38,764 nucleotides of DNA, from contig JAHEBH010000023.1 of assembly GCA_024642335.1 (NCBI GenBank), forward strand, positions 1 to 38,764, in the 5' to 3' direction. The stretch's first letter is position 1; every line of letters begins with the position of its first letter. The notes under the pieces were generated by a model. That model ran no database searches. It was not told the origin of the DNA and saw nothing but the letters and a program-made list of their open reading frames with translations. This DNA comes from Erythrobacter sp. (GTDB lineage Bacteria > Pseudomonadota > Alphaproteobacteria > Sphingomonadales > Sphingomonadaceae). Positions 25,559-29,742 of the stretch are shown here, piece after piece. A program made the translations under genes and the position numbers.

Positions 25559-27373
25559 ATGCTGTGCCAAGCACGGCTCATGCCTGCCGCTTCCGCACAA
25601 TCCCGGCCTGCGCTCGACGATGCGCGCAAGGTCCTGCGCCAGACGTTCGGCTTCGCCAAGTTTCGCGGGGCGCAGGAAGATGTGCTGGCGCGCGTGTTGG
25701 CTGGCCAATCCACGCTGGCGATCATGCCAACTGGCGCCGGAAAATCGCTGACCTATCAATTGCCCGCCTGCATGCTGGAGGGGACATGCGTGGTGATCTC
25801 GCCGCTGATCGCGCTGATGCATGACCAGCTGCGCGCCGCCCGCGCCAACGGCATCCGCGCCGCCACGCTGACCAGCGTGGACGAGGACTGGCGCGAAACG
25901 CAGGACGCCTTCCGCAATGGAGATCTGGACCTGCTCTATGTCGCGCCCGAACGCGCCAGCCAGGCGCATTTCCGCGATCTCCTGTCGCAGGGGCGGATAG
26001 CGCTGTTCGCGGTGGATGAGGCGCATTGCGTGTCCGAATGGGGGCACGATTTCCGGCCCGATTATCGCCAATTGCGCCCGCTCATGGACATTCATCAGCA
26101 GGTACCGCGCCTGGCGCTGACAGCCACCGCCGATGCCCATACGCGGGCCGATATCCTGCATCAGCTGGGCATTCCCGAAGACGGGATGATCGTGGCTGGA
26201 TTCGACCGGCCCAATATCCGCTATGCCATCCGCCACAGGCAGTCCGCGTCGGCACAGCTAGAACAATTGCTGGCTGAGCAGCCGGGGCCGGGCATCATCT
26301 ATGCCCCCACGCGGCGCAAGGTGGAGGAACTGGCCGAACGGCTGGGTGCCAAGGCCAACCGCCCGGTCCTGCCCTATCACGCGGGCCTCGATCCGCAGCA
26401 GCGCGCCGCCAACCAGGCCGCCTTTGTCGCCAGCGAGGACATGGTGATGGTGGCGACGATCGCTTTCGGCATGGGGATCGACAAACCGGATGTGCGCTTT
26501 GTCGCGCATGCGGGCATCCCCAAGTCGATAGAGGCCTATTACCAGGAGACGGGCCGCGCGGGCCGCGATGGCGATCCAGCGCTGGCGATGATGCTGTGGG
26601 GGGCGGGCGATTTCGCGCAGGCACGGATGCGGCTGGGCGAGGTGGATGAGGAGCGCCAGCAGGGCGAGCGCAAGCGGCTCGATGCGCTCGCCGCGCTGGT
26701 CGAAACGCCCGCCTGCCGCCGCGCGGTGCTGCTGCGCCATTTCGGGGAAGACCCGCCCGCGGCCTGCGGCAATTGCGACAATTGCCTCGACCCGCCGCAG
26801 CTGGTGGAAACGAGCGAACTGGCGCGCAAGCTGCTCAGCGCCGTCTATCGCACCGGGCAGACCTATGGCTTCGGCCATATCCAGAAAGTACTGACCGGGG
26901 CCGAGGACGAGCGGATCACCGCGCGCGGGCATGACCGGCTGTCGGTATTCGGCATTGTCGGCGGCGAGGAGGCGCGCCTGCTCCAGCCGCTGGCGCGCGC
27001 GCTGCAGGCCCGCGGTGCGCTGGTGCAGACCGAGCATGGAGGGCTGGCGCTGGGCGGCGATGCGCGGGCAATCCTGAAGGGCGAACGGCCGGTCGCCATC
27101 ACCCGCCCGCCCGAACGCCAGCGCCGCCGCGGTCGCAACCAGGCACCCAATCCGCTGGGCGACCCGCTGTTCGATGCGCTGCGCGCCGTGCGCCGCGATC
27201 TCGCAGAAGAAGGCGGGGTGCCGCCCTATGTCATCTTCCACGATGCCACCCTGCGCGAAATGGCCGCCAAACGCCCTTCGAGCCTGGCCGAAATGGGCGC
27301 GCTTTCGGGCGTGGGCGCGAAGAAGCTGGAAGCCTATGGCGAGCAATTCCTGCAGATCATCCGCCAGAACTGA
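25559..27373 (+). CDS. recQ: ATP-dependent DNA helicase RecQ
   Basis: RecQ unwinds DNA 3' to 5' in recombination and replication-fork repair. The 604-residue protein has Walker A MPTGAGKSLTYQLPA near residue 56, the helicase motif VDEAHCVSEWGHDF (DEAH), motif VI QETGRAGRDG, and the zinc cysteines C..CGNCDNC before the RQC winged helix. It ends in an HRDC domain (LFDALRAVRRDLAEEGGVPP to KKLEAYGEQFLQII). It is complete. The start is uncertain: the ATG at 25580 is an alternative, and neither has a strong ribosome site. Confidence 0.95.
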   Translation: MLCQARLMPAASAQSRPALDDARKVLRQTFGFAKFRGAQEDVLARVLAGQSTLAIMPTGAGKSLTYQLPACMLEGTCVVISPLIALMHDQLRAARANGIRAATLTSVDEDWRETQDAFRNGDLDLLYVAPERASQAHFRDLLSQGRIALFAVDEAHCVSEWGHDFRPDYRQLRPLMDIHQQVPRLALTATADAHTRADILHQLGIPEDGMIVAGFDRPNIRYAIRHRQSASAQLEQLLAEQPGPGIIYAPTRRKVEELAERLGAKANRPVLPYHAGLDPQQRAANQAAFVASEDMVMVATIAFGMGIDKPDVRFVAHAGIPKSIEAYYQETGRAGRDGDPALAMMLWGAGDFAQARMRLGEVDEERQQGERKRLDALAALVETPACRRAVLLRHFGEDPPAACGNCDNCLDPPQLVETSELARKLLSAVYRTGQTYGFGHIQKVLTGAEDERITARGHDRLSVFGIVGGEEARLLQPLARALQARGALVQTEHGGLALGGDARAILKGERPVAITRPPERQRRRGRNQAPNPLGDPLFDALRAVRRDLAEEGGVPPYVIFHDATLREMAAKRPSSLAEMGALSGVGAKKLEAYGEQFLQIIRQN

Positions 27374-27417
27374 CCATGCACGGTTTCGAATCTGCTTGAA
27401 ATACCCGCATCGCCCCT

Positions 27418-27443
27418 TAAATATGATATCATATTTATATCAT
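27418..27443. promoter_or_regulatory. AT-rich palindromic operator before the SPFH operon
   Basis: Bases 27418-27437 form a perfect 20-base palindrome (TAAATATGATATCATATTTA). The half-site ATATCAT occurs at 27426 and again at 27437, 11 bases or one helical turn apart. This suits cooperative binding by ribbon-helix-helix dimers such as the one encoded in this operon. It ends just before the GGAGGGG ribosome site at 27444-27450, so a bound protein would block transcription or its start. It contrasts sharply with the GC-rich surroundings. Confidence 0.75.
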
Positions 27444-27454
27444 GGAGGGGTTAG

Positions 27455-28354
27455 ATGACTGAAGAAGTTGCAGCTATGACCAGGAGCCGGGAAACGGCGG
27501 CTCAGACGAAGAGCGGCTACAAGATGCTGTTGTTCTTGGCCGGGCTTATCGTCCTTGCAATCGCGTCCGCAGTAACGGGAGCACAAACACAGCGTCCGAT
27601 ATTCGCGCTGATCGTGCTGCTAACGATTCCGACCTTCGTCTTCACGCTGATCGGCTTCTACATGATCCAGCCCAACCAGCGCGTGGTGATCACATTGTTC
27701 GGCGAATATCGCGGGACGGACCGCAACGAAGGCCTGCGCTGGCGCTGGCCGTGGATGGGACGCAAGAAAGTCTCCGTCCGCGCGCACAACATCCATTCGG
27801 AGCGCGTGAAGATCAACGATTTGCGTGGCAATCCGGTAGACATCGCCTGCAACGTGGTGTGGCGCGTGCGGGATACGGCTCAGGCCGTGTTCGACGTTGA
27901 TGACTATCGTGAGTTCGTGAATATCCAGATCGAGGCGGGCCTGCGCACCGTCGGCGCGCGCCATCCCTATGACGACATGAGCGAGGATGACCAGACGACA
28001 TTGCGCGGCAGTGCCGATGTCATAAATTCCGAACTCCGGGCCGAGTTGAACGAGCGGCTGAATGTCGCCGGTATCGTGGTGGACGAGGCTGGGCTGACCC
28101 ACCTTGCCTATGCACAGGAGATCGCCGGCGCCATGCTCCGCCGCCAGCAGGCCGATGCGGTGATCGCCGCGCGCAAGAAGGTGGTGATCGGCGCTGTCGG
28201 CATGGTCGAGGATGCGCTCAACAAGCTGGCCGAGGACGGGATCGTCGACCTGGATGACGAGCGCAAGGCGGCGATGGTCTCCAATCTGCTGGTGGTGCTG
28301 TGCGGCGATCGTGATACCCAGCCCGTGGTCAATGCGGGGACGCTTTACCAGTAA
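27455..28354 (+). CDS. SPFH/Band 7 domain membrane protein
   Basis: The 299-residue protein has two N-terminal membrane helices (about 24-43 and 49-71) followed directly by a Band 7 domain starting [17 protein letters not shown], with an [18 protein letters not shown] region near 235-250. SPFH proteins form oligomeric rings or cages that organise membrane microdomains or control membrane proteases. The C-terminal coiled coil is short. GGAGGGG lies 4 bases before the ATG. It is first in a probable operon with a ribbon-helix-helix gene (4 bases apart) and a tiny membrane peptide. Its exact role is unknown; a stress-linked membrane function is inferred. Confidence 0.9.
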
Positions 28355-28358
28355 GACT

Positions 28359-28565
28359 ATGCCACAGGCGAAAAAGAAAGCCTTTGCCCTGCGGCTCGAC
28401 CCGGCGCTCCACGATGCGGTGGAGCGCCTTGCCGCGCAGGAGCTGCGTTCGGTGAATGCCGAGATCGAAATGCTGCTGCGCGAGGCGCTGAAGCGGCGCG
28501 GCCTTGATGTGCCCGTGGGCGCGAAGCCGCGCAGGGGCAGGCCGCCCGTCAACAGAGGAGAATGA
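28359..28565 (+). CDS. Ribbon-helix-helix (Arc-like) DNA-binding protein with AT-hook-like tail
   Basis: The 68-residue protein has the RHH pattern: a short strand KAFALRLDPALHD, helix AVERLAAQE, then SVNAEIEMLLREALKRR, as in Arc/HicB-type regulators. The tail KPRRGRPPVNRGE contains an RGRP core like an AT-hook, which binds the minor groove of AT-rich DNA. It starts 4 bases after the SPFH stop and is followed within 1 base of its stop by the ribosome-spaced start of a tiny peptide gene. It probably autoregulates through the AT-rich palindrome before the SPFH gene. An antitoxin role is possible from the fold, but there is no toxin-like neighbour. Confidence 0.85.
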   Translation: MPQAKKKAFALRLDPALHDAVERLAAQELRSVNAEIEMLLREALKRRGLDVPVGAKPRRGRPPVNRGE

Positions 28566-28566
28566 A

Positions 28567-28674
28567 ATGGAAAACACCTGCACATCATGCACGAAGCGAA
28601 AGCTCTTTTTCGCCGCCTGTTTCGGATTGGCGTTCTTGATGATGTTCGCATCGATTGCTTACGTCGCCAATTGA
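28567..28674 (+). CDS. 35-residue single-helix membrane peptide with CxxC
   Basis: An ATG with AGGAG 6 bases upstream opens a 35-codon frame starting one base after the RHH stop. The peptide has a short N-terminus with Cys5-x-x-Cys8, two basic residues (KRK), and one hydrophobic helix (about 13-33, rich in Phe, Ala and Met). The CxxC could bind metal or form a disulfide. Position, ribosome site and composition support a real gene, but no homolog is known to me. Because it shares an operon with an SPFH protein, it may be a membrane partner. Confidence 0.6.
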   Translation: MENTCTSCTKRKLFFAACFGLAFLMMFASIAYVAN

Positions 28675-28731: not shown

Positions 28732-29742
28732 GTGAAGTTCGGTATATTCGACCACGTTGACGATAGCGGCTTGCCACTGCGCGAGCATTTCGCAGCGCGG
28801 CTGCAGATGGTCGAGGCCTATGAGGCGGCGGGATTTGACGGTTACCATGTCGCCGAACATCACGGCACGCCGCTCGGCCATGCACCATCGCCCGGCGTCT
28901 ATCTCGCCGCCGTCAGCCAGCGCACCAGCCGTATCCGTTTCGGCCCGCTGGTCTTTCTCCTGCCGCTTTATCACCCGCTGCGTCTGATCGAGGAAATCGG
29001 CATGCTCGATGCCCTTTCGGGTGGGCGGCTGGAATTCGGCTATGGCCGGGGCATCTCGCCGATCGAGATGGGCTTCTACGGCGTCGACATGGCAGAACAG
29101 CAGGCGCGCGCGGACGAGGCTTTCGACGTGGTGATGAAGGGGCTGACATCCGAGCGCCTGTCGCATGATGGGCGCTTCTTCCGCTTCGACGACGTGCCGA
29201 TGATGCAGCCCGTGACGCAGAAGCCGCACCCGCCGCTTTGGTACGGTACCAATTCCCCGGCCTCGGTGCAGCGTTGTGCCGAGGCGCGGCTCAATATGGT
29301 CACCTTGCTGGCGGGCGAAACCATGCGCGCCATGATCGAGGGTTATCGCGCGGCCTATGTCGCATCGGGCGGCGCGCCCGAGGAGATGCCGCTATTGGGG
29401 GTCGGCCGCCATATCGTGGTGGCGGACAGCGACGATGAAGCGCTCGCGATTGCACGTCCCGCCTTCGCCCGCTGGCGCGCCAGCTTCGTCCATCTGTGGG
29501 AACGGCACGGGGCGGACAATCCCTTTGTAAGGAACTTTCCAAAGGATTGGGACGCGGTCGAAGCAGCGGGCACCGCCTGCGCCGGATCACCCGACAGGGT
29601 TCGGGCCTTCCTGCAGCGCGACGCGGAACTGGGCGGTTACACCTATCTGCTCGCCCAGCTTGCCTTCGGGAACATGACGGTGGAGCAGGTCACCCGCTCT
29701 TCCCGACTCTTCGGGCAGGAGGTCTTGCCCGCCTTCGCGTGA
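28732..29742 (+). CDS. Luciferase-like (LLM class) flavin-dependent oxidoreductase
   Basis: The 336-residue TIM-barrel enzyme begins at GTG with GGGAGGAG upstream. Family marks include MKFGIFDHVDDSG, GFDGYHVAEHHG, the flavin-region phrase IRFGPLVFLLPLYHPLRLIEEIGMLD (cut short: LYHPLRLIEEIGMLD near 82-96), and GGRLEFGYGRG. Such enzymes use FMNH2 or F420H2, usually supplied by a separate reductase, to oxygenate or oxidise small organics. No reductase is adjacent and the substrate is unknown. It is convergent with ribA, only 6 bases apart. Confidence 0.92.
   Translation: MKFGIFDHVDDSGLPLREHFAARLQMVEAYEAAGFDGYHVAEHHGTPLGHAPSPGVYLAAVSQRTSRIRFGPLVFLLPLYHPLRLIEEIGMLDALSGGRLEFGYGRGISPIEMGFYGVDMAEQQARADEAFDVVMKGLTSERLSHDGRFFRFDDVPMMQPVTQKPHPPLWYGTNSPASVQRCAEARLNMVTLLAGETMRAMIEGYRAAYVASGGAPEEMPLLGVGRHIVVADSDDEALAIARPAFARWRASFVHLWERHGADNPFVRNFPKDWDAVEAAGTACAGSPDRVRAFLQRDAELGGYTYLLAQLAFGNMTVEQVTRSSRLFGQEVLPAFA

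Follow-up and report, generated by a model that had tools for sequence, protein, structure and literature searches.

The closest described systems are operons in which an SPFH membrane protein is conserved together with a partner. Hinderhofer 2009 (PMC2636767) sorts the prokaryotic SPFH proteins into 12 subfamilies and ties SPFH1, SPFH2 and SPFH5 to NfeD. SPFH1 corresponds there to stomatin and SPFH2 to flotillin, and SPFH6-12 are given without documented member proteins. In the YdjI-PspA system of Bacillus subtilis, as outlined in the abstract (PMC8581546), an SPFH protein is coupled to a membrane-stress response through PspA and YdjG/H.

Here we analyse a locus of a different composition in the window, the whole 38,764-nt stretch of DNA under study. 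The gene order is recQ (25559-27373), a palindrome (27418-27437), an SPFH gene, a gene for a ribbon-helix-helix (RHH) protein, a 35-codon frame, and a luciferase-like monooxygenase gene (28732-29742). The SPFH and RHH genes are separated by 4 bases, and the RHH gene and the 35-codon frame by 1 base. A preliminary description of this DNA had placed the SPFH gene, the RHH gene, the 35-codon frame, and the palindrome with a third half-site; all of these positions are borne out by the sequence and its reading frames. The features are as follows:

27396-27423, forward strand: possible promoter, picked out by eye (TTGAAA at 27396-27401, 16 nt, TAAATA at 27418-27423)
27418-27437, no strand: perfect 20-bp palindrome TAAATATGATATCATATTTA, part of the operator, with the core box TGATATCA at 27424-27431
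27435-27442, no strand: second operator box TTATATCA, centred 11 bp from the core box
27455-28354, forward strand: SPFH/Band 7 protein of 299 aa (Pfam Band_7, E 4e-24)
27518-27577 and 27593-27661, forward strand: two N-terminal hydrophobic helices of the SPFH protein (residues 22-41 and 47-69, low-confidence model)
27662-28180, forward strand: Band_7 stretch of the SPFH protein (Pfam)
28319-28351, forward strand: C-terminal tail of the SPFH protein, 11 residues, proposed RHH docking motif N-x-G-[STN]-[LIV]
28359-28565, forward strand: Arc-like RHH protein of 68 aa, proposed autorepressor (Pfam Arc above cut-off)
28533-28544, forward strand: RGRP codons, AT-hook-like tail of the RHH protein
28567-28674, forward strand: 35-codon frame with CxxC and one hydrophobic segment, outside the conserved module, perhaps translated

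The SPFH-RHH pair and its genomic setting

The SPFH protein scores 86.1 bits against Band_7 (curated cut-off 23.6). Its profile has HflK as the best sequence match in the PDB (1.3e-5), and it does not qualify as an equivalog of NCBIfam hflK (29.3 against a cut-off of 159.4 bits) or hflC (17.7 against 134.4 bits). Eight window frames within and near the operon were scanned, and none matched NfeD at E up to 1. Two hydrophobic segments occur in all 127 RHH-containing loci whose SPFH aligns from residue 20 or earlier. Such an N-terminal helix pair would put both ends of the SPFH protein on one side of the membrane, presumably the cytoplasm, together with the SPFH domain and the tail; the structure model itself is poor (mean pLDDT 54).

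A link of the module to viruses was considered and set aside. A profile search of viral_contigs gave no relative, and the phage collection gave seven records with a match, the four fetched being marked unverified. Distant relatives do exist in phages, as a match of the SPFH protein to PHROG 200, 'lipoprotein' (E 2.7e-9), shows. One of the unverified phage records, from an Enterococcus phage (L179), and a 33-kb Pseudomonas aeruginosa plasmid (L183) carry closely similar SPFH genes with an identical best upstream 19-mer, and may represent foreign or mixed-in sequence. In a further locus (L219, genome G697) the matched SPFH stretch contains 11 stops under table 11, as in a decayed gene or one read with another code.

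The RHH protein passes two Pfam cut-offs, both narrowly (Arc, 21.9 bits against 20.4; HicB, 21.4 against 21), and matches a PHROG Arc-like repressor at 1.9e-6. By sequence, its closest solved relatives are the phage P22 Arc repressor and Arc-like RHH repressors. Residues R12, R30, S31 and N33 are identical in 139/139 loci, and R12 aligns with the DNA-contacting strand of Arc. The monomer model has a single long helix (15-46) and no strand, and Foldseek returned no credible PDB match for it. Annotated names for these RHH genes vary, from HicB family antitoxin (L146) and Arc family DNA-binding protein to hypothetical protein and 'PTS ascorbate transporter subunit IIC'; the last (L155, 2795-2992) is very likely wrong.

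A strong SPFH match is present in 29 of 40 genomes of the same genus, and the RHH gene follows SPFH in all 109 loci (93 unique) from the window's genus and order, two of these records being named only to class. Because the best 80 of 447 relatives were kept, the gathered loci lean to Sphingomonadales. An even draw of 299 genomes from the window's phylum, searched with both profiles, gave SPFH in 40, RHH in 40 and both in 37, on the same strand and within about 300 nt. RHH had no match at E 1e-5 in the SPFH-only genomes (G333, G102, G056), and the stretches taken around the lone RHH genes (G195, G209, G198) held neither SPFH nor TGATATCA. Two further draws, in which some genomes recur, yielded SPFH in 13/323 and 13/386 genomes, with RHH present in 9/13 each, rarer than in the first draw.

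Over all sets, RHH lies within 1 kb of SPFH in 158/170 loci (139/151 unique) from five phyla, counted without a distant SPFH paralogue (L030) and 30 loci fetched for other reasons. The phyla beyond the window's own rest on seven records, pairs from the plasmid collection in Nonomuraea (Actinomycetota), two Deinococcus, Prevotella, Parabacteroides and Phocaeicola (Bacteroidota), and Acetoanaerobium (Bacillota). That collection had 28 records with a match, of which 18 were fetched; two are chromosome-sized, and one (H15) is not in the analysis. Two other Deinococcus records have SPFH without RHH. The preliminary description had allowed for an SPFH gene that usually occurs without its companions; for RHH the reverse is seen, with the pair in 37/40 and 139/151. 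These comparisons indicate a pair that is real and wide, but patchy.

Eight SPFH-free genomes of the genus, at least 99% complete, were used as an empty-site test (G014, G015 and G029, 86% complete or less, were excluded). In 8/8, recQ directly adjoins a beta-helix gene of the kind found elsewhere after RHH, and TGATATCA was not found in the 4.8-kb locus. Judging from these empty sites, the SPFH-RHH-operator unit is gained or lost as a cassette.

The slot after RHH is variable. Sorted by short motifs, so that counts are approximate, it holds among the 93 unique loci a two-helix WFxPK family (34), a two-helix DKPFVC family (9), a beta-helix gene (12), a luciferase-like gene (8), a zinc ribbon (4), a hydrolase (3) or something else (23). 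Inspection by eye shows a good ribosome-binding site for the 35-codon frame of the window (AGGAG, 6 nt ahead of its ATG). Its product had been counted as a member of the module, a role rejected in view of this variable slot content and of its distribution; a lack of conservation, named in the preliminary description as a ground for refutation, is what is seen. It occurs in 1 of 40 genus genomes, its own, and tblastn over the 109 loci found its own locus only (other hits E 2.4 or more). Two weak genus matches (E 0.25 and 0.45) lie inside long frames. Pfam gave nothing above cut-off for the 35-mer, and NCBIfam, PADLOC and PHROGs gave no match. The frame may encode a genuine small membrane protein, though one restricted to this lineage. 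Directly after RHH in four other loci (L104, L081, L110, L048) are three single-helix peptides of 30-31 residues and one of 47, which shows that very small membrane peptides turn up here repeatedly; the 30-31-residue ones begin MIG, unlike the window's 35-mer.

The RGRP tail of the RHH protein, proposed as a general part of the module, likewise proved narrower in scope, being present in 104/104 Sphingomonadales RHHs and in 1/35 others. It is a lineage trait nearly confined to Sphingomonadales and dispensable for the family as a whole. In AT-hook proteins an RGRP core contacts the minor groove of AT-rich DNA, and the tail may do likewise.

A tandem operator in front of the operon

The third half-site, ATATCA at 27437-27442, lies 11 bp past the half-site at 27426-27431, and the second hexamer of the candidate promoter falls inside the palindrome. 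Neither a consensus promoter nor an intrinsic terminator at the locus was found at the thresholds of the scans; some relatives show TTGACA- or TTGCGC-like boxes at a similar distance (by eye). An operator was scored where two TGATATCA octamers had a centre-to-centre distance of 11 bp and at most 3 mismatches in 16. By this measure it is present upstream in 135/139 loci with RHH and in 0/12 without; controls gave 0/139 shuffles (one per upstream stretch) and 0/139 in-gene windows. An exact TGATATCA lies upstream in 111/139 loci with RHH, and a copy with at most 1 mismatch in 138/139. The four RHH-containing loci without the tandem site are L150, L154, L181 and L182; the sequence of L181 is truncated immediately upstream of the gene.

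The spacing is conserved as well. With the best octamer as centre and a second octamer of at most 2 mismatches sought at spacings 8 to 16, the Sphingomonadales (n=104) have the partner at -11 in 92 and at +11 in 31, and the other loci (n=34) at -11 in 18 and at +11 in 12. Spacings other than 11 gave 3 matches, all at 16. Many Sphingomonadales have three boxes by eye; the window keeps two of these, middle and right, and its left box is degenerate (6 mismatches). The operator is a conserved tandem and more than the palindrome alone.

At most 1 mismatch allowed, TGATATCA-NNN-TGATATCA occurs once in the 2.66-Mb genome, at this operon (0 in the backward-read control). Whole-genome scans of 15 RHH-containing genomes located this site at the operon in 14, and 12 of those have no second one. 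Of 5 scanned genomes without RHH, one (G333) has it elsewhere and none at SPFH. Since the operon site is the sole tandem site in most of the genomes scanned, RHH probably acts chiefly on the operon that encodes it.

A wider regulon in the window's own genome was considered and rejected, with only three other tandem places, each with 3 mismatches. The 15 stretches around single-box sites among the matches listed contain 11 exact boxes, and for none of them was there a partner with at most 2 mismatches at 11 bp. Extra tandem sites occur in G784 (3), G453 (1) and G333 (1), and neither SPFH nor RHH was found among the six longest frames of the stretches around them. The three of G784 lie near unrelated frames on one 155-kb contig (contig 5, L229-L231).

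Taken together, the absence of the operator where RHH is absent and the place of the palindrome within a conserved tandem operator fit the earlier idea of a self-regulated membrane module as far as the SPFH-RHH pair and its tandem operator are concerned; the CxxC peptide and, as a general part, RGRP fall away from it. An SPFH gene with a dedicated small DNA-binding protein and a matching DNA switch, found in several phyla, suggests an undescribed module of this kind.

The SPFH tail and possible modes of action

The SPFH protein ends in ...QPVVNxG[ST]LY, and residues 284-299 are predicted to be disordered (pLDDT under 50, low-confidence model). The tail N-x-G-[STN]-[LIV] is present in 139/139 loci with RHH and 0/12 without. 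As this expression was composed after the RHH-containing tails had been seen, it was then tested unchanged on 13 loci fetched afterwards. In this small set, 7/7 with RHH have both tail and operator (at most 1 mismatch) and 6/6 without RHH have neither, counting one locus with 156 nt downstream (L213) and the broken frame of L219. Tail and RHH are therefore present or absent together in 164/164 loci (151 + 13). Direct sequence comparison establishes the gene pair, the operator, and the joint presence or absence of operator, RHH and tail.

Trees were built from 75 rows (about 1/7 of the Sphingomonadales loci, the remaining unique loci and 12 later loci; L219 is in neither tree). The quick tree of all 75 rows has 5 changes of RHH state, of which starred branches force only 1. 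In the careful tree (67 rows after 8 long or partial rows were dropped, with the last 20 residues removed beforehand) there are 4 changes, 2 of them forced by starred branches, and a single clade without RHH is rejected (p 2e-5). By these trees, the split between loci with and without RHH reflects more than one event. One locus (L196) falls beside RHH-containing rows (support 82); it lacks RHH, the operator and the last tail residues, and keeps the sequence through INTGS.

Arc binds DNA as side-by-side dimers set one turn from each other. The boxes here, one turn apart over the presumed promoter, suggest the same arrangement and autorepression. In the reading that we prefer, and consider somewhat favoured, the locus is a two-gene SPFH operon under autorepression, in which the membrane protein uses its tail to control the repressor. 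Two or three dimers of the Arc-like RHH would bind side by side to TGATATCA boxes spaced by one helical turn (11 bp), covering the start of the operon that encodes them and so repressing it. The SPFH protein would be anchored in the membrane by its N-terminal helix pair, with SPFH domain and tail probably cytoplasmic, and its conserved flexible C-terminal tail would dock to RHH. The level of free repressor would then depend on how much membrane scaffold there is or on its state of assembly, the signal being perhaps a membrane disturbance. DNA binding, repression, tail docking, topology and signal are inferred. Autorepression by RHH is very probable; for docking of the tail to RHH the balance tips slightly the other way.

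The same pair and operator data require no contact between the proteins, and RHH might do no more than keep the operon low, the loss of the tail being drift of a repurposed SPFH. Most SPFH proteins without RHH are divergent and lie on long branches, and some are near-copies of one another, so that tail loss may partly be drift. Weighed against this is the co-occurrence or co-absence of tail and RHH in every one of the 164 loci, including L196 with its RHH-containing neighbours, and we regard repression free of SPFH contact as rather unlikely. If SPFH instead held the RHH-operator complex, the DNA site would be anchored to the membrane, an arrangement compatible with the two membrane helices, the conserved tail, and a tandem RHH site with no further copy in 12 of the 14 genomes having one. 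One short array over a promoter is, however, what is typically seen in repression; there is no long centromere-like array, and the 8/8 genus genomes tested manage without the locus, which makes such a tether very improbable.

Fainter still is the case for a toxin-antitoxin-like pair with RHH as antitoxin and SPFH as its target. Antitoxins often autorepress, the HicB score is barely above its cut-off, and the L146 relative carries the HicB family antitoxin name. Yet SPFH, a scaffold-type protein of 299 aa, persists without RHH in 12/151 loci, the neighbours of RHH are SPFH, the 35-codon frame and then the luciferase-like monooxygenase, with no HicA-like gene, and the window genes have no match among the defence systems of PADLOC.

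Returning to the tail-controlled operon, a broader version can be put forward tentatively, with less assurance than docking itself: a membrane-to-DNA switch in at least five phyla, in which the SPFH scaffold would be the sensor and its tail would capture or release an Arc-like repressor acting chiefly on its own operon, with no need of a kinase, a sigma factor or a protease. Many bacterial SPFH proteins have no settled role, and a dedicated repressor, an operator and a candidate docking tail offer a direct handle on it; finding what derepresses the operon would reveal what this SPFH responds to. RHH genes with inconsistent annotated names also gain a likely function.

Relation to described systems

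SPFH operons with a partner and autoregulating RHH proteins are each known; as far as our searches of the open literature go, their combination is undescribed. In the open literature searched, SPFH domain and Arc family do not occur together, and SPFH and ribbon-helix-helix do so only in an Agrobacterium study (PMC8656257), where the latter appears once, in a reference title. In the portions consulted, neither that study nor a 2026 P. aeruginosa survey (PMC13086221) describes such a pair. The main text of Hinderhofer 2009 (PMC2636767) does not contain the terms repressor, DNA-binding, HicB or transcriptional regulator, and the phylum spread in its Table 1 is only suggestive of membership in SPFH6.

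Like the SPFH-NfeD operons, this locus joins an SPFH membrane protein and a partner in one conserved operon; the partner there is NfeD, here a DNA-binding RHH. The link to membrane stress in YdjI-PspA has no RHH repressor named in its abstract (PMC8581546). Of HflK/HflC, HflK is the best PDB sequence match of the SPFH profile; the SPFH protein differs from them in that it falls far under the NCBIfam hflK cut-off and is partnered by RHH. The RHH protein, in turn, has its closest solved relatives by sequence in phage P22 Arc and Arc-like repressors, whereas it is cellular, tied to SPFH, associated with the box TGATATCA, and in Sphingomonadales extended by the RGRP tail.
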